From the NCBI GenBank assembly GCA_021781655.1, contig JAJXWJ010000032.1:1-35341 (forward strand): a stretch of DNA of 35,341 nt. The letters run 5' to 3'. Below the pieces are notes generated by a model that worked only from the letters and a program-made list of their open reading frames with translations, did not search any database and was not told the DNA's origin. This DNA comes from Bacillota bacterium (lineage in GTDB: Bacteria > Bacillota > Clostridia > Clostridiales > Clostridiaceae). The translations under genes and the position numbers were made by a program. Shown one piece after another: positions 16,372 to 31,717 of this stretch; the stretch's first letter is position 1, and every line of letters starts with the position of its first letter.

Positions 16372-17442
16372 CTATTCTTCGCTTAAAAGAAATATTTTAT
16401 TGATATCTAATTTAATATTTAAAAATTGAGATTTGTTTTTAACTGCAAACCAATTTTCTTTTGGAATTTCAAGATGAAGCTCTCTAATAGCTTTGTCTTC
16501 TACGAACTCTGTTTTTTTTAGATAAATAGTGAAATTAAAAGAACTTTCTATCATCCTTACGATAGTAAACTTAAATGTATTTATATCCTCTTTATTTGTT
16601 ATTTTTATATCATGAGCTCTTATACCTATATGTGAAAAAGTTTCATTAACATTATTTACTTTTAAAGCTATTCCCCATTCTACAGCTTTCACGTATCCAT
16701 TTTCTAAAGCCCTTATTTTCGATATATTTTTACAACCTGTAAGCTTTGCCGAAGAAACATTAGGAGGAGCTTTAAATATATCTTTCTTTAAGCCGTTAGC
16801 AACAACTTTGCCCTTATTTAAAACTACTAAGCTATCACAAATGCGATAAGCTTCGTCCATATTGTGAGTAACAAATATTGTATCTCCCTCATATTCAGCT
16901 AAAAGTTTTAAAAGTTCTTTTTCTATTTGATTTTTAATGTGGTTGTCTAAAGCCGAAAAAGGTTCATCTAAAAGTAAAACTTCTGGATTTATAACTAATG
17001 CTCTAGCTAATGCAACCCTTTGCTGTTGACCACCAGATAGTTCAAGTGGGTACCTATGTTCAAAGCCTTGAAGCTTCATAATTTCAAGTTTATTCATAAT
17101 TATTTTTTGTTTTTCAGCTTTGTTAGCTTTGTTTAAACCAAAACTAATATTTTCGTAAACTGTCATATTGGGAAAAAGCGCATAATTTTGAAACAGAAAT
17201 CCTACTTTCCTATCTTTAGCCTTAACATTAACCCTTTTTTCAGAGTCAAAAAGTGTCCTATCATTTAAAATAATTTTTCCAGCTGTAGGAGTTTCAAGTC
17301 CTGCAATGCACTTTAAGGTCATGCTTTTCCCTGAGCCAGATTCACCAAGTAAGCCTAAAGAATTTTTATTTGTGTCAAAACACACCTTTAGCTGAAAGTT
17401 GTCCATTTCTTTTATAATATCAACATATAATGACAAAAACAT
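16372..17442 (-). CDS. modC: Molybdate ABC transporter ATP-binding protein ModC
   Basis: 356 aa. Walker A GESGSGKS (33-40), Q-loop FQNYALFPNM, signature LSGGQQQR (135-142), Walker B VLLLDEP (155-161) and the H-loop FVTHNMDEAYR make a full importer ATPase. A C-terminal regulatory region of about 130 residues begins at LTGCKNISKI, as in ModC/CysA relatives. It powers molybdate uptake with the adjacent modB and modA products, supplying Mo for FeMo-cofactor. The start is uncertain: the ATG sits only 1-2 nt from AAAGGTGGG, while a TTG at 17436 (MSLYVDI...) has ideal spacing and may be the true start. It is the last gene of the nif-mod transcription unit. Confidence 0.95.
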   Translation of the reverse strand: MFLSLYVDIIKEMDNFQLKVCFDTNKNSLGLLGESGSGKSMTLKCIAGLETPTAGKIILNDRTLFDSEKRVNVKAKDRKVGFLFQNYALFPNMTVYENISFGLNKANKAEKQKIIMNKLEIMKLQGFEHRYPLELSGGQQQRVALARALVINPEVLLLDEPFSALDNHIKNQIEKELLKLLAEYEGDTIFVTHNMDEAYRICDSLVVLNKGKVVANGLKKDIFKAPPNVSSAKLTGCKNISKIRALENGYVKAVEWGIALKVNNVNETFSHIGIRAHDIKITNKEDINTFKFTIVRMIESSFNFTIYLKKTEFVEDKAIRELHLEIPKENWFAVKNKSQFLNIKLDINKIFLLSEE

Positions 17443-17449
17443 CCCACCT

Positions 17450-18136
17450 TTAGTAACTATACTTTTTCCTAGCTTTTTTTGTTCCTTTTTGAAACCAGAT
17501 ATTCATAGAAAATATAACTATCATAGAAATAATTACAATTATTATTACCCAAATTAATGCTTCATTCATATTTCCATCTTCTGCAGCAAAATATATAGCT
17601 ACTGGAATAGTTTGTGTACGATTTGGAATATCACCAGCTATCATCAAAGTTGCCCCAAATTCTCCTAAAGCTCTCGCAAAGGATAGAAGGGTTCCTGATG
17701 CAACTCCTGGTAATGCAAGTGGAAGAATAACTTTGTAAAAAATTTTCCATTCAGAAGCTCCTAAGGTTCTTGCAGCATTAACAACATTTGTTTCTATTTG
17801 TTCAAAAGCACCTCTAGAGGTCCTGTACATTAAGGGAAATGCAACTACTGTAGCTGCAATTACTGTAGCCGGCCAAGAAAATATTATTGTATATTCAAAT
17901 TTAATAAGAAATTGTCCTAAAGGACCATTTTTCCCAAATAGCAATAGTAGCAAATATCCTACTACAGTAGGAGGCAAAACTAATGGTAATGTAAATACTG
18001 TATCCAATATATTTTTTAATTTACCTTTGTAATTTGACATAAATCTTGCAGCAAAAATACCAATGAAAAAAGTTATTACTGTTGCTGTAATAGATGTTTT
18101 AACAGATATGAATACAGGTGAAATATCAAAATTCAT
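17450..18136 (-). CDS. modB: Molybdate ABC transporter permease ModB
   Basis: 228 aa with about five to six membrane helices. The cytoplasmic coupling loop NAARTLGASEWKIFYKVILP carries the conserved EAA-type motif with G-A-S, and VLPPTVVGYLLL is typical of ModB. AGGAGGT precedes the ATG. It sits between modA (26-nt gap) and modC (7-nt gap). It forms the membrane channel through which molybdate delivered by ModA passes into the cell. Confidence 0.95.
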   Translation of the reverse strand: MNFDISPVFISVKTSITATVITFFIGIFAARFMSNYKGKLKNILDTVFTLPLVLPPTVVGYLLLLLFGKNGPLGQFLIKFEYTIIFSWPATVIAATVVAFPLMYRTSRGAFEQIETNVVNAARTLGASEWKIFYKVILPLALPGVASGTLLSFARALGEFGATLMIAGDIPNRTQTIPVAIYFAAEDGNMNEALIWVIIIVIISMIVIFSMNIWFQKGTKKARKKYSY

Positions 18137-18162
18137 TGCTATTACCTCCTAATATTATTGTA

Positions 18163-18960
18163 TTAATTCGTTATAAAACCATATTTCTTAAATATTGCTT
18201 TTGCTTGACTACTAGATAAAAATTTCAAAAATTTGTTTGCTTCTGATGAGTTCTTTGTTGCTTTTACAACAGCTCCTGGATATACAACTTCTTTATGAGA
18301 ACCCTTTGGGGCAGTAGCAACTATTTTTACCTTTTTAGAAGTTTTAGCATCTGTTGAATATACTATACCTGCATCTGCATTTCCTTCCTCTACCCAACTT
18401 AGCACTTCCTTAACGTCTTTGCCTAAAATTTCTTTAGATTTAACCTTTTCTGTTATATTTAAAGCATCAAATACTTGTTCAGCATATTTACCAGCTGGAA
18501 CTGCCGCTGGTTCACCTACTGCAATATGTTCAACGCTATCCTTAGTTAAATCAAGGAAACTTTTTAACTCTAATTTAGAATCCGTTGGAACTATCAAAAC
18601 AACCTCGTTTTTTAATATGTTAACAATTGACTTTTCATCAACCAAGCTTTTATCCTTCAATTTATTCATATTAGTTGTGTCTGCTGAAATAAACAAATCT
18701 ACTGGAGCACCTTGCTCTATTTGCTGTTCTAAAGTTCCAGAAGCTCCATAATTATTTGTAAACTTTATATTTGCATTATCCTTTTTATATTCAGCTTCTA
18801 CTGCGTTTAGCGAATCTGTTAAGCTAGCTGCAGCAGATATATTTAAAGTTACTGCTTTTGCATTATTAGTTGTGTTAGCTAAAGAAGAAGAGCTACCACA
18901 ACCACCTAGACTAAACATGGTAATTATTGATAAACAGACCACTATTAATATTTTTTTCAT
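18163..18960 (-). CDS. modA: Molybdate-binding lipoprotein ModA
   Basis: 265 aa. A lipoprotein signal MKKILIVVCLSIITMFSLGG ends at lipobox LGGC, giving a lipidated Cys21. The mature protein has the ModA fold: ISAAASLTDSLNAVE near the N-terminus, NYGASGTLEQQIEQGAPVDLFIS, VGEPAAVPAGKYAEQ and a late GIVYSTDAK. It captures molybdate outside the membrane and hands it to ModB. GGGAGGT lies 7 nt ahead of the ATG at 18958-18960. A TTG 15 nt earlier is within that ribosome binding site and is rejected. It is preceded by a hairpin that could lower or tune read-through from the nif genes. Confidence 0.95.
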   Translation of the reverse strand: MKKILIVVCLSIITMFSLGGCGSSSSLANTTNNAKAVTLNISAAASLTDSLNAVEAEYKKDNANIKFTNNYGASGTLEQQIEQGAPVDLFISADTTNMNKLKDKSLVDEKSIVNILKNEVVLIVPTDSKLELKSFLDLTKDSVEHIAVGEPAAVPAGKYAEQVFDALNITEKVKSKEILGKDVKEVLSWVEEGNADAGIVYSTDAKTSKKVKIVATAPKGSHKEVVYPGAVVKATKNSSEANKFLKFLSSSQAKAIFKKYGFITN

Positions 18961-18985
18961 TATGCTACCTCCCAAAATATAAAAT

Positions 18986-27015: not shown

Positions 27016-27852
<837 letters not shown>

Positions 27853-27892: not shown

Positions 27893-27921
27893 ATAATATC
27901 ATATTAAAAACAATAAAACAA
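27893..27921 (-). promoter_or_regulatory. nifH promoter
   Basis: Reading leftward, TTGTTT (27916-27921) and TATTAT (27893-27898) are separated by 17 nt, with TGA just before the -10 (extended -10). This would start transcription about 50 nt before nifH. There is no sigma-54 (GG-N10-GC) element, so control should not be NifA-type. Confidence 0.65.
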
Positions 27922-27929
27922 TAGTTTTT

Positions 27930-27945
27930 TTGATAAATCAATAAA
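27930..27945. promoter_or_regulatory. Palindromic site shared with the ferredoxin gene (nif copy)
   Basis: TTGATAAATCAATAAA, with the inverted repeat TTGAT-AA-ATCAA at 27930-27941. It lies 8 nt upstream of the nifH -35 box, the position of an activator site. The same 16 nt recur at 31315-31330. Confidence 0.6.
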
Positions 27946-28135
27946 TATTCTAAAATTATTTTAATAATATGATAAAATTAGTTTAATTTTATTGTTATTT
28001 ATTCATTTTGTATATTGCTACATTCTTTACTTTACATTAATTTTCATATACTTATATTTATATTTGTTTACGTTTTATATCTTTTTATATTGTTATAAAA
28101 TTTTGAACATTTTTTTATCTTTTATAATTATTTTC

Positions 28136-28164
28136 TTGTAATTATGATAATTTTATATTATTAT
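28136..28164 (+). promoter_or_regulatory. Candidate promoter of the nif-linked regulator
   Basis: TTGTAA (28136-28141) and TATTAT (28159-28164) are 17 nt apart, about 78 nt before the regulator start. The 400-nt gap 27842-28241 is extremely AT-rich and otherwise holds only the nifH promoter and palindrome. Chance matches are likely in such sequence. Confidence 0.35.
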
Positions 28165-28241
28165 AGCTTTATATTAATAAATTAATAATTTTGATCATTA
28201 TTTTTTTTTAAACCTTCATTTCTATAGAAAGGAGATAACTT

Positions 28242-29201
28242 ATGATTGAAGATATAGCTCTTACTCCTCAAGAAGTTGCCGACATATTAAAAATTGCTAA
28301 AAATACAGTTTATGAACTTATAAAAAGAGGGGAACTAAACGGTTATAAGGTTGGTAAGAAAATTAGAGTAGACTTTAGTGATGTTGAGGAATATAAAAAC
28401 AAAACAAAGCATAAGGAAATAAATATATCAAAACCAAGTAATGATGAATTTTCTTTATATAATAATTGTTCTAACCATAGCGAAAATATTCATAATAATG
28501 ATTTTGTGATTTGTGGACAAGATATATTATTGGATATTCTTTCTAGATACTTAGAATTACATCCACAAGGTGTGCACCCTCTTAGATCATACACAGGTAG
28601 TTATAATGGATTAACTTCCCTTTATCATGATAAAGTTCAAGTTGCTACTGCCCATCTTTGGGACAGTGACAGTGATCAATACAACATACCGTATATTAGG
28701 AGATTAATTCCTGGGATACCAACAGTAGTAATTAATATAGCTTACGTAATGCTTGGTTTTTATGTTATAAAAGGCAATCCTAAAAAAATTAGTAGCTGGG
28801 AAGACTTAAAAAGACAAGACATAAAAATACTAAATAGAGAAAAGGGAAGTGGAACTAGAATATTATTAGATGAACATCTAAGACTTCTAGACATCGATAG
28901 TAATAGTATAAATGGCTACAATGATGAATGTTTAACTCATCTTGCAGCTGCAAGTACCGTTGCTAGAGGTGGAGCCGATGTTGCCCTTGGAAATGAGAAA
29001 ACAAGTTTTCAAGTAAGCAATGTTGATTTTATTCCCTTAGCAAGAGAAAAATACGATTTAGTAATTAAAAAATCTAATCTCAATAAACCTCCATTTAAAG
29101 CAATTATAGAAATTTTAAAATCTGAAAGCTTTAAACGAGAACTAATCGGCATAGGTGGATATGACATTTCAAGCATTGGCTCCATAGTTACCGAACTATA
29201 A
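28242..29201 (+). CDS. HTH plus PBP-like ligand-domain regulator divergent from nifH
   Basis: 319 aa. Residues 5-52 are an excisionase/MerR-like helix-turn-helix (LTPQEVADILKIAKNTVYEL, then GYKVGKKIRV). After a polar linker, residues about 87-305 form a PBP-like domain of the kind seen in LysR and MoeA relatives, with LNREKGSGTRILLDEHL (197-213) and AAASTVARGGADVALG (235-250). Such domains resemble oxyanion-binding proteins, so molybdate, tungstate or a related ligand is a reasonable guess. It is divergent from nifH, in one unit with a HesB-like gene, and in the same island as modABC. I infer that it regulates nif transcription. AAAGGAGAT precedes the ATG. The ligand and direction of control are unknown. 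Confidence 0.8.
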   Translation: MIEDIALTPQEVADILKIAKNTVYELIKRGELNGYKVGKKIRVDFSDVEEYKNKTKHKEINISKPSNDEFSLYNNCSNHSENIHNNDFVICGQDILLDILSRYLELHPQGVHPLRSYTGSYNGLTSLYHDKVQVATAHLWDSDSDQYNIPYIRRLIPGIPTVVINIAYVMLGFYVIKGNPKKISSWEDLKRQDIKILNREKGSGTRILLDEHLRLLDIDSNSINGYNDECLTHLAAASTVARGGADVALGNEKTSFQVSNVDFIPLAREKYDLVIKKSNLNKPPFKAIIEILKSESFKRELIGIGGYDISSIGSIVTEL

Positions 29202-29223
29202 ATATTAGAAATGAGGGATAGAC

Positions 29224-29547
29224 ATGGATATAATTGAAATTAGCGAGGAAGCTTATAATGAATTTAAAGCTTATCTTAATAACAGTGGTGTAGGAAGTTA
29301 CAATTTAAGAATTGGATATGTAGGAAAAGATTGCAATGGTGCTATATTTAATATAGAAGAATCTTCTGAACTTCCAAATGATCTTGTTGTGGAATTAAAT
29401 GAACTTGTTTTATATATAGACGAAAAGTTAGTAAATGAATATGAGGGCTTTATTATTTTATCAAATAAAGAAAATAACGGTGAAGGCTTGGAACTTAAAC
29501 CAATAAAAGCACCTCCTAATCCATGCATTGGCTGTTCAGGCTGCTAA
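29224..29547 (+). CDS. HesB/IscA-like iron-sulfur protein
   Basis: 107 aa, the usual A-type carrier length. The core fold of the family is recognisable (IEISEEAYNEFKAYL, then NLRIGYVGKDCNG with C37), but the C-terminal CGCG-type motif is replaced by PNPCIGCSGC, giving C101, C104 and C107. A-type proteins carry Fe-S clusters or iron, and HesB relatives are often found in nif regions. The extra-cysteine tail could bind a cluster or metal in a different way. It lies 22 nt after the regulator gene with GAGGGA as ribosome binding site, so they share a transcript. The final codons contain no in-frame TGA, so this is not a selenoprotein form. Confidence 0.75.
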   Translation: MDIIEISEEAYNEFKAYLNNSGVGSYNLRIGYVGKDCNGAIFNIEESSELPNDLVVELNELVLYIDEKLVNEYEGFIILSNKENNGEGLELKPIKAPPNPCIGCSGC

Positions 29548-29553
29548 AATTAG

Positions 29554-29604
29554 AAATAAGGGGCTAAACTCCCTTTCTTTCTATCTAATAGCAGCCCCTT
29601 ATTT
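29554..29604. terminator. Bidirectional terminator
   Basis: AAATAAGGGGCT (29554-29565) and AGCCCCTTATTT (29593-29604) are perfect 12-nt inverse copies, with T-rich sequence following on both strands. It separates the HesB-like gene from the convergent DUF2325 gene, whose stop codon lies in the right arm. Confidence 0.85.
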
Positions 29605-31152
29605 ATTTATAAGTTTCTTTATCTCATCCATAAGCTCATATTCTACCAACTCCATATTTGTTTTGCCTATATAACCAAACTTCAAGACATTTGCTCTAAT
29701 AAAATTCATAGCCCTATAATATGTAGCATGATTCATATAACCAGAATAAAAAAATATATATTCATAACCTCCCAAAATAGCAACATCAAAATTTTCATTA
29801 AAACCGCTTAAGGTTCTTAAATTAGGATACTTTTCTCTAAATCTTCTCCTCCATTCTTTTGTACCTCCAATTATTAATATTTTTGAACAATCTATATACG
29901 AGTCTAGGGTTTTTTCTCTTTCTTTTGGAATATATTCATTATTTACTTCAAACACATATTCCCTTAAAGTATTTAATTCATTTCTATATTTTCTTTCTTC
30001 TAAAAGACATTTTTCTAGTTCTAATATCTTGCTATTCATCTCATTGATTTGAATTTTATGTGATTTTTCTATTTTATTTATTTCATAATTTAGTGCTTCA
30101 TTAAAGCTATTTTTTTCATCTGCAACATTATTAAGTTCAATTTTTAAATTAAGATTTTCCTTTTCTATGGTGGCAAGTCTGCCTTCTAAATCATCGATTT
30201 TATATAGAAGCGTTTCTTTATTGTTCTTAAAATACAAATCCTTTGAATTTTTATACTCATTGATTAAACTTTTTATAAAAACACCACATATAACATTATT
30301 TATCATGTCTTCAGGATTTTTAATTCTTCTGCTCTTTATATTAGCTAAAATAATTTCTTCAATATCCCTTTCGCTAAGGCTTTTAAAAAGATGGTTTATA
30401 TTTAATTTATTTATTATAAAAAGATTTTCTGTTATATTTCCAAACTCTTCAATAAGTTTATTATCATGATTTATTATATTTTTATAATTAAAAATATTTC
30501 CATACCTTTCTATAATTAAATTCATAACTTTTCCAATTTGATCTCTATTTCTATTAAGTTCCTCTAAAATATCAGTTGTTATTGGAGCATTAAACTGAAA
30601 ATCTTGAAACTCATTAATAATAGATACAACACAGTTTTGATCTATATTATCAGGATATTTATACATTGAAATATAAAAATAGACTGCTGCATCTATTCTT
30701 GATTGGGTCTCCCTTGTTATTAAGTCCATTTGTGAATATCTTTCCTTAAGCTCCCTCAAATTATGTCTTCGTACAGCTTTAAATACTATAGGATAAAACT
30801 TTTTAAGTAATTTAATTATTTTATACCTTAAATTAAAATCCTCTTCTGCACACAATAATATGCCTAAAACTTTCCTAGCATAAATAATTTGTTCTAATGT
30901 CCCTTCTGTCATAATAATATGATTTATAGCCGTTGACTTTTGCATTGTATTGTAATAAAAAAGTTTATTCTGTGAATATATTTCTTCTATTTCCAAAATC
31001 ATTTCTTGAGTTTTTACTAATCCTACACTTATATTTGAAAACAAATAATTTTTTAAAACATCCTCTGCTATTTCTAACTTTCGTCCTATAGCTTTCGAAA
31101 ACCCATCTATATTAACTATTTCATTTTTATTTTTATCTACTTTTCTCTCCAA
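29599..31152 (-). CDS. Coiled-coil protein with C-terminal DUF2325 domain, function unknown
   Basis: 517 aa starting at TTG (31150-31152) with AGGTGG just ahead. The next Met is about 50 residues in. The first 300 residues are helical, rich in Ile, Lys and Glu, and match no family I know. A coiled coil runs from about 318 to 400. Residues 425-510 look like DUF2325: KILIIGGTKEWRRRF, then LRTLSGF, FDVAILGGYEYIFFYSGYMNHATYYRA, and a VLKFGYIGKTN strand, a small Rossmann-like fold. The domain has no assigned activity. The gene sits between the nif regulator-HesB unit and the nitrogenase-linked ferredoxin, and its promoter region is shared with the ferredoxin. A nif-related role is inferred from position only. 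Confidence 0.72.
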   Translation of the reverse strand: MERKVDKNKNEIVNIDGFSKAIGRKLEIAEDVLKNYLFSNISVGLVKTQEMILEIEEIYSQNKLFYYNTMQKSTAINHIIMTEGTLEQIIYARKVLGILLCAEEDFNLRYKIIKLLKKFYPIVFKAVRRHNLRELKERYSQMDLITRETQSRIDAAVYFYISMYKYPDNIDQNCVVSIINEFQDFQFNAPITTDILEELNRNRDQIGKVMNLIIERYGNIFNYKNIINHDNKLIEEFGNITENLFIINKLNINHLFKSLSERDIEEIILANIKSRRIKNPEDMINNVICGVFIKSLINEYKNSKDLYFKNNKETLLYKIDDLEGRLATIEKENLNLKIELNNVADEKNSFNEALNYEINKIEKSHKIQINEMNSKILELEKCLLEERKYRNELNTLREYVFEVNNEYIPKEREKTLDSYIDCSKILIIGGTKEWRRRFREKYPNLRTLSGFNENFDVAILGGYEYIFFYSGYMNHATYYRAMNFIRANVLKFGYIGKTNMELVEYELMDEIKKLINK

Positions 31153-31202
31153 ACTCCCACCTACTCTTTCGTTTTATTGAGATTAATACGCAATATAAAT
31201 AA

Positions 31203-31232
31203 ATTATATAATATCTTCATAATTTTAGTGAA
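31203..31232 (-). promoter_or_regulatory. Candidate promoter of the DUF2325 gene
   Basis: Reading leftward, TTCACT (31227-31232) and TATAAT (31203-31208) are 18 nt apart, about 50 nt before the TTG start. A separate perfect palindrome GTTAATATTAAC lies upstream at 31263-31274. Confidence 0.45.
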
Positions 31233-31314
31233 CCTTTAAGCTTTAATTGTATTTTCTATTTTGTTAATATTAACCGTTTTTTATGTGTCTATAAATAATT
31301 TTAGCTTATTTTAA

Positions 31315-31330
31315 TTGATAAATCAATAAA
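31315..31330. promoter_or_regulatory. Palindromic site shared with nifH (ferredoxin copy)
   Basis: TTGATAAATCAATAAA, identical to 27930-27945, lies about 83 nt ahead of the ferredoxin ATG and 163 nt ahead of the divergent DUF2325 gene. It sits upstream of either possible ferredoxin promoter. Confidence 0.6.
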
Positions 31331-31337
31331 AATAAGC

Positions 31338-31366
31338 TTGTATAATTATCAAATTAATGTTATCAT
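31338..31366 (+). promoter_or_regulatory. Candidate promoter of the [2Fe-2S] ferredoxin gene
   Basis: TTGTAT (31338-31343) and TATCAT (31361-31366) are 17 nt apart, with TGT before the -10. This is the same architecture as the nifH promoter. A consensus TATAAT at 31341-31346 is an alternative -10, but its best -35 (TTGATA in the palindrome) is 20 nt away. Confidence 0.45.
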
Positions 31367-31408: not shown

Positions 31409-31717
31409 ATGGTTAATCCTAAGTATCATATTTTTGTATGTACGAGTTGCAGAGTAAATGGAAAACAACAAGGTCTATGTTATTCTAAAGATTCTGTACA
31501 AATAGTTAATAATTTTATGGAAGAAATCGATGAAAGAGACCTATCCAGTGAAGTTATGGTAACTAACACTGGATGCTTTGGTGTTTGCAGTAGCGGTCCA
31601 ATTGTAGTTGTATATCCTGAAGGAACTTGGTACGGTAATGTATCTCCAGATGATGTAGAAGAAATTGTTGAAAAACATATTGAAGGTGGAGAAATTGTGA
31701 CTAGACTACAGATTTAA
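31409..31717 (+). CDS. Thioredoxin-like [2Fe-2S] ferredoxin linked to nitrogenase
   Basis: 102 aa with cysteines at 11, 14, 24, 56 and 60 (FVCTSCRVNGKQQGLCY and NTGCFGVCSSGP). Length and Cys positions match the C. pasteurianum [2Fe-2S] ferredoxin, a thioredoxin-fold protein known to interact specifically with the MoFe protein of nitrogenase. Four of the cysteines bind the cluster and the fifth lies in a flexible loop. Its exact role is not settled; electron transfer or nitrogenase protection or assembly are options. GAGGT precedes the ATG. It is monocistronic and shares a palindromic upstream site with nifH. It is strikingly acidic. Confidence 0.93.
   Translation: MVNPKYHIFVCTSCRVNGKQQGLCYSKDSVQIVNNFMEEIDERDLSSEVMVTNTGCFGVCSSGPIVVVYPEGTWYGNVSPDDVEEIVEKHIEGGEIVTRLQI

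Follow-up and report, generated by a model that had tools for sequence, protein, structure and literature searches.

A repeated element at two nitrogenase-linked promoters

The 35,341-nt stretch analyzed here (contig JAJXWJ010000032.1 of assembly GCA_021781655.1; hereafter the window) comes from a member of the Clostridiaceae. It carries a run of nitrogen fixation (nif) genes that begins with nifH, a divergent gene for a 319-aa regulator combining a helix-turn-helix (HTH) with a periplasmic binding protein (PBP) domain, and a gene for a ferredoxin (Table 1). A first-pass annotation had reported an identical 16-mer ahead of nifH and of the ferredoxin gene, and both positions are confirmed: TTGATAAATCAATAAA lies at 27930-27945 and 31315-31330 of the plus strand. 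With nifH on the minus strand and the ferredoxin gene on the plus strand, the two copies are oppositely oriented relative to their genes. The core, TTGATAAATCAA, is a perfect inverted repeat centered on AA, and the two promoters proposed by that annotation, 8 and 11 nt from this 12-mer, are present as described. Its claim that the window holds no further copy fails, as a related site, TTAATAAATTAATAAT, is found at 28174-28189. We argue that this signal is very probably the landing site of a nitrogen fixation regulator used by a group of related clostridia.

A search of the 3.71-Mb genome finds the exact 16-mer at just two places, the nifH and ferredoxin gaps of the window, which answers in the annotation's favor the question of whether it is common in gaps. 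Two sequences resembling these gaps share a 16-mer with a probability of 0.009-0.013 (3000 Markov simulations for each of two orders), and 11 of 4000 random pairs of intergenic gaps from the same genome do so. Taken alone, the two-copy identity is therefore only moderately unlikely (P about 0.01); it is the comparison with other genomes that makes the case strong. By itself the loose palindrome carries no significance: TTGATNNATCAA with up to one mismatch is found at 6 places in the window, against 4.9 expected. Genome-wide, TTGATNNATCAA itself has 23 copies (10 for the backwards control), among them 11 of TTGATAAATCAA; 9 of these lie outside the window, all within mechanically called reading frames.

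Table 1. Positions of the element copies, promoters and genes discussed in the text (window coordinates)
Feature	Position	Strand	Remarks
Proximal 15-bp element, nifH promoter; TTATTGATTTATCAA read towards nifH	27930-27944	-	Center 27937; 8 nt 5' of -35 box
Distal weaker copy of the element, TTATCATATTATTAA, 8.0 bits	27961-27975	-	Center exactly 31 bp upstream of proximal center
Possible third weak copy, 3.8 bits	27992-28006	-	62 bp upstream; tentative
nifH promoter TTGTTT-N17-TATTAT, predicted sigma-A-type	27893-27921	-	Sequence prediction
nifH (TIGR01287), first gene of the nif run	27016-27840	-	Family match
Proximal 15-bp element, ferredoxin promoter; TTGATAAATCAATAA	31315-31329	+	Center 31322; 8 nt 5' of -35 box
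Ferredoxin promoter TTGTAT-N17-TATCAT, predicted	31338-31366	+	Sequence prediction
Clostridial [2Fe-2S] ferredoxin gene (NF041612)	31409-31717	+	Family match
Third element, TTAATAAATTAATAA, between possible promoter and regulator start; possible autoregulatory site	28174-28188	+	Putative position relative to a start site
Possible regulator promoter TTGTAA-N17-TATTAT	28136-28164	+	Read by eye
Divergent HTH-PBP regulator, HTH_17 (PF12728) + PBP_like (PF12727); candidate reader	28242-29201	+	Domain matches
Molybdate transport (mod) genes, far end of the same-strand nif run	16372-18975	-	modA TIGR01256; modB/modC named from reading of frames

A conserved 15-bp unit and its phasing in a group of Clostridiaceae

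The unit conserved among relatives is a 15-bp element approximating TTRATAAATTAATAA, with two 7-bp arms about one base. Framed in this way, both window copies stand exactly 8 nt upstream of the -35 box, and the 8-versus-11 nt mismatch of the first reading is removed. To define it we drew on 120 nifH-like places tallied in the family: the window's region was used with 79 of the other 119 and, as an eightieth, L149, a place beside a regulator gene in G161 that is not nifH, scores low among the divergent regions and remains in the totals of 80, 81 and 120. One of the 80 (L071) is the second nifH of the same genome. A further 40 upstream regions of ferredoxin homologues, the last two of them distant, were also fetched, for 120 upstream regions overall. 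The 12-nt palindrome was rejected as the conserved unit, its exact form being found in none of these 120 regions. Thus, of the conservation before relatives' nifH that the first-pass annotation had named as a check, the 15-bp element bore it out and the 12-nt palindrome did not. When 19 relatives' nifH promoters are aligned on the -35 box, the 15-bp element precedes the box by 7 to 9 nt, the -35 being of TTG type and the -10 of TGATATATT type, and 17 of these sites score at least 11 bits. The 19 regions were chosen for visible similarity from a listing anchored on the -35 box, apart from the promoter of L141, which was picked by the motif.

Scoring matrices single out the window's sites. Trained on 26 sites outside this genome (19 nifH, 7 ferredoxin), a first matrix puts both 16-mers joint first in the window at 15.4 bits and 28174-28189, shortly before the divergent regulator gene, third; 400 kb of the same genome (20 stretches, 6 contigs) hold a single place of equal or better score, which lies inside a frame. 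A matrix from the 19 nifH sites, applied at register, gives 15.6 bits at the window's nifH in reverse reading (5.3 forward) and 15.6 bits at its ferredoxin gene. Among 365 generic TTG-type promoters of the same genome, scored with the nifH-only matrix at register, none reaches 10 bits and 2 reach 8. The genome has 14 exact copies of TTRATAAATYAWYAA, of which 3 fall inside one 3.4-kb stretch of the window; the other 11 comprise 8 in frames and 3 intergenic copies, none of which, on reading, has a TTG at register. Across relatives, 18 of the 80 nifH regions reach 8 bits at a promoter when their own genus is left out of training. Of the ferredoxin regions, 9 of 40 pass the promoter cut, plus the window's. 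Many ferredoxin orthologues appear to lie close behind other nif genes and lack a TTG-type promoter, so most of the 40 are uninformative.

A composite pattern of element, gap and promoter, run over 206 family genomes, finds 24 + 14 places, against 5 + 7 for its backwards control. By reading of neighboring frames, nitrogenase linkage was assigned to 15 of the 24 and 4 of the 14, in 13 genomes: 9 at nifH, the window's ferredoxin gene, 4 at alternative-nitrogenase D genes, 2 at anfO and 3 beside nifB. Gene names at these places and at regulator loci were read from translations, the reading frames being mechanical. Since the anfO, alternative-D and nifB-side promoters were found via the element, their register scores are circular; their gene identities and their copies at -31 are not. 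The earlier proposal of a shared cis-element at matching promoter positions, and so of one regulon, is supported by relatives' nifH and other nitrogenase genes, and at relatives' ferredoxin genes it holds in part, with the element present but less evenly than at nifH.

The element is often accompanied by a second copy. Scored at 158 offsets from the proximal copy in 35 promoters, offset -31 is the best (z 4.6), with a mean of 0.7 against an overall mean of -13.0 (sd 3.0), and it also leads when the 19 nifH relatives (z 3.75) or the 15 non-nifH promoters (z 4.2) are taken separately. A score of at least 3 bits at -31/-30 is attained in 21 of the 35 promoters and in 0 of 38 control sites of the same genome. 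This test used 5 of the 7 ferredoxin training promoters (without L154 and L155), left out the second nifH, which had been part of the preceding profile, and anchored the L300 array on its strongest site rather than the -35-adjacent one; kinship among genomes is uncorrected in these counts and z values. A hand-picked set of one promoter per lineage (z 5.4) was chosen after the profile had been seen, is biased and carries no weight. As a check without selection on the motif, we anchored on the -35 box only: in 23 nifH regions outside training the two highest-scoring centers are -16 and -47, which differ by 31 bp and have a modest z of 2.6 each, and in 10 ferredoxin regions -16 is the best (z 4.1). 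The window's nifH promoter has a partner at -31 and a possible weak third copy at -62. A spacing of 31 bp corresponds to roughly three turns of the helix and so places the copies on the same face of the DNA.

Two further features of relatives' nif loci were noted. In three species of genus group g21 (L276, L278, L281), a pair of elements with 30-bp spacing lies between a nifB-like gene and a gene for a small XRE-like HTH protein, possibly a further regulon member. The nifH leaders of genus group g3, which lack the 15-bp element, contain in many cases hairpin-like GACA..G..GTC motifs (for example, L097-L103, L111-L116 and L147), several of them ahead of T-runs; the motif is present in 11 of the 19 regions of this group and in 5 of 62 outside it, and we take it to be reminiscent of ANTAR antitermination targets.

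The divergent HTH-PBP protein as candidate reader

The regulator encoded divergently from nifH matches PF12728 at 58 bits and PF12727 at 231 bits, both above the Pfam cut-offs. Its structure model has a mean predicted local distance difference test score of 82, and the fold of residues ~82-319 matches BenM/CatM (LysR effector domain), ModA/TupA and phosphate-binding proteins with Z of 15-17, a likeness of the PBP fold that in itself reveals no ligand. A search of solved structures by sequence with the regulator profile returned two weak matches to sulfate-binding proteins. The HTH is strongly conserved in 20 homologues.

Both neighborhood and co-occurrence associate this protein with the element. 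With the genus left out of training, the element reaches 8 bits in 12 of 23 regions that have a divergent HTH-PBP gene and in 7 of 58 others (Fisher P 3e-4, uncorrected for kinship; 12 of 22 and P 2e-4 without L149). Where a genome has no full-length HTH-PBP homologue (hits counted at 260 bits or more), the element stays below 8 bits, in all 9 nifH regions concerned. HTH-PBP homologues adjoin mod genes at 8 of 20 fetched Clostridiaceae loci, as read from translations, and also in Cereibacter. A scan for named relatives gave 7 loci, and identical stretches identify G100 as Clostridium thailandense and G123 as C. polyendosporum. In C. thailandense, the gap between the regulator gene and modA (L239) holds three copies of the element at 2741, 2772 and 2803, in 31-bp steps, the last of them exactly 8 nt before TTGATT-N17-TATAAT; this is a nifH-like layout at a molybdate transport promoter. 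In the same species, two strong copies 31 bp apart occupy the gap that separates an HTH-PBP paralogue from an anf-type nifH; when the sequence is read, a weak third copy follows after another 31 bp and stands 8 nt ahead of a TTGCAA -35 box. Of 29 regulator genes, 13 have TTGATAA/TTATCAA arms in their upstream regions, 16 copies in all versus 7.6 expected. CGTTATA arms show a similar fold excess (5 copies versus 2.2 expected), but upstream of only 2 of the 29; a CGTTATA-type operator was on this count rejected as the HTH-PBP site, and it survives as a rival lead.

The earlier suggestion that the HTH-PBP protein reads the element is thus favored by neighborhood and co-occurrence and short of proof, and we lean slightly towards it. 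Taken as a whole, the chain from conserved operator up to the HTH-PBP protein as its reader has our cautious preference. We infer a scheme of activation with a reader, a ligand and feedback. Among a group of Clostridiaceae, a probable 15-bp operator stands before nitrogenase-linked sigma-A-type promoters, with 8 nt between it and the -35 box; its center is near -52 from the predicted start, and a copy often lies exactly 31 bp further upstream. This operator would be bound by a one-component HTH-PBP regulator whose gene lies next to nifH. Molybdate or tungstate, a signal to which we give even odds, would be sensed by the PBP domain, and the ligand would set the activity of the regulator. Dimers on the proximal element and on the phased copy might then cooperate and contact RNA polymerase, such that nif and ferredoxin transcription would be raised when the metal is available. 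The copy at 28174 may give the regulator feedback on its own gene. Autoregulation through such a site was rejected as a general feature, with a site near the regulator's own start standing beyond 95% of the background in 4 of 21 regions (the window, L250, L252 and L255).

The genome also carries a second nitrogenase-type cluster (G000:C50; loci L061 and L062), whose NifH2 is 95% identical to the NifH of the window. Its further genes, named from translations, are D, a 112-aa delta-like protein, K, an E/N-like gene, two nifV-like genes, an AnfO-like gene, a ferredoxin-like gene and two HTH-PBP paralogues. Upstream of nifH2 is a perfect CGTTATATTATAACG palindrome, which overlaps a weak 15-bp element at the usual register. 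The paralogue beside this second nifH has an HTH very similar to that of the window's regulator, and the CGTTATA arm upstream of the gene resembles the ModE half-site. In a separate lineage, the HTH-PBP homologue on a Rhodobacter capsulatus plasmid (L305) is annotated as two pieces, an HTH and a substrate-binding domain, beside arsenic genes.

Alternative explanations and known regulatory systems

Computation on the sequences establishes the element together with its register, the 31-bp phasing and the link to nitrogenase genes, and we hold it to be nearly certain that this is a real conserved nif cis-element. Chance identity in A+T-rich gaps can point to the P of about 0.01 for a 16-mer common to two such gaps; a matrix from other genomes nevertheless ranks exactly these two places first, and, with the register and phasing results, this leaves chance a negligible probability and, in our view, already refutes it. 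A very improbable alternative is that RNA polymerase is the only reader and the element nothing more than the A+T-rich UP element of strong sigma-A promoters. UP elements lie about where the element sits, and its A+T-richness and its position, roughly -59 to -45 from the predicted start, fit. However, copies at 31-bp steps are not a known property of UP elements, half of the family-wide matches fall at nitrogenase genes, and the generic promoters of this A+T-rich genome stay below 10 bits at the register. The phased second copy in particular argues against both chance and a plain UP element, and we consider a transcription factor operator highly likely.

Such an operator might serve a repressor that holds nif off and releases it under nitrogen-fixing conditions, which we think unlikely. 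The copy at 28174 lies downstream of the possible regulator promoter, where a repressor would be expected to bind; by contrast, the element stands upstream of the -35 box, with phased copies beyond, at nifH, at the ferredoxin gene and in the promoters of relatives. Sites upstream of -35 with phased upstream copies are more usual for activators. The position of the element immediately before the -35 box, with phased copies beyond it, thus makes activation its probable mode of action.

A body of results weighs against the reading of the element as a conserved operator served by the HTH-PBP protein. The training sites were partly picked by eye, with weak scores of 3.8 and 5.4 bits for two of the 19, and the information content of the element is low (10.3 bits). 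With the genus left out, 62 of the 80 relatives' nifH regions score below 8 bits, including all 19 of g3, and relatives' ferredoxin promoters span 4.8 to 11.8 bits at register; the window's own ferredoxin promoter, scored at -31, has no good copy. Half of the composite-pattern places (19 of 38) lack nitrogenase linkage, and 5 of these are inside frames. As for the reader, 11 of the 23 divergent nifH pairs remain under 8 bits, and a site near the regulator's own start stands out in only the 4 of 21 regions listed above. When regulator/mod gaps, or parts of them, were scored against shuffles, 1 of 12 was significant, that of C. thailandense; no significant site was found in Cereibacter, a Syntrophomonadaceae metagenome-assembled genome, G096, G099, G122, G142, G165 or the other gaps scored. 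The nifH of G130 keeps the element, and the regulator match there covers residues 37-319, with most of the HTH missing. Finally, the protein is not specific to nif, since at least 16 genomes with an HTH-PBP match of no less than 260 bits yield no nifH match at E 1e-90.

Some of these results would suit a different arrangement, in which the element is a real nif operator read by another factor, such as a nitrogen-status regulator, and the HTH-PBP gene is a mere neighbor with sites of its own. We treat this as possible, if rather doubtful. The element and the HTH-PBP gene are not always together, 11 of the 12 regulator or mod gaps lack a significant site, G130 retains the element despite its truncated regulator match, and a different palindrome precedes the second nifH, beside a paralogue with a very similar HTH. 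Against it stand the nine nifH regions, from genomes lacking a full-length regulator homologue, in which the element falls short of 8 bits, the frequent TTGATAA/TTATCAA arms at regulator genes, and the complete architecture at modA beside the regulator in C. thailandense; moreover, the window contains no GlnR-type match.

Several known systems resemble the proposed one in part. In NifA/sigma-54 control of nif, one activator drives nifH and its electron donor from upstream sites. The likeness is that nifH and an electron donor would here too be under one upstream-acting activator, whereas the predicted promoters are sigma-A-like. The first-pass annotation had seen no sigma-54 elements, and for promoter-type sites it was right for the window: TGGCAC-N5-TTGCW has 15 matches, all with 2 mismatches, against 11.6 expected, and none in the nifH gap. 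GlnR controls nif in the Gram-positive Paenibacillus under sigma-A promoters; the promoters are alike here, but operator and spacing differ, and the GlnR/TnrA consensus TGTNAN7TNACA has no match in the window. Compared with the FNR site TTGAT-N4-ATCAA, the arms are too close, being 2 bases apart in the window and set about one base in the relatives' 15-bp unit. Compared with the Fur box TGATAAT-N-ATTATCA, the conserved unit has a shorter gap from TGATAA to the mirror arm; one relative's gap has a perfect TGATAATAATTATCA elsewhere in it.

LysR-type regulators use several dyad sites upstream of the -35 box, and the HTH-PBP protein is like them in joining an N-terminal HTH to a type-2 PBP domain, with a fold matching the BenM/CatM effector domain. 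Pfam detects no LysR HTH in the 319-aa protein at E 0.001, its HTH being of the HTH_17/excisionase type. ModE/Mop regulators control alternative nitrogenases and mod genes according to molybdate; the molybdate logic and the mod and nif/anf neighbors would be shared, while the sensor (PBP_like) and the operator at the genes studied differ. Among the open-licence papers listed, none gave an operator or target for regulators combining PF12727 and PF12728, and none described this element or a regulator for it or named a transcriptional regulator or operator of clostridial nif, older work on C. pasteurianum nifH lying outside this scope.

Clostridia were among the first organisms in which nitrogen fixation was studied biochemically. 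We tentatively suggest that a previously undescribed master switch, independent of NifA, may operate in a group of Clostridiaceae, where a metal-sensing HTH-PBP protein, acting through arrays of the 15-bp operator in 31-bp steps on sigma-A promoters activated from about -52, could control molybdenum and alternative nitrogenases, their ferredoxin and, in some, molybdate uptake. With a 15-bp element of fixed register, a 31-bp phasing and one candidate reader, the question of clostridial nif regulation becomes testable, and the strict pattern alone marks 13 genomes for such tests.

Between the regulator and ferredoxin genes lie two further genes; no Rfam match at gathering scores was found in the window. 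The first, directly after the regulator gene, encodes a 107-aa HesB-like protein (29224-29547, plus strand) that ends in CIGCSGC and matches TIGR01911 just below the cut-off. The second, between the HesB-like and ferredoxin genes, encodes a 517-aa protein (29599-31152, minus strand) with no Pfam or NCBIfam match at E 0.001, and a protein of similar appearance adjoins an HTH-PBP gene in L257/L299.

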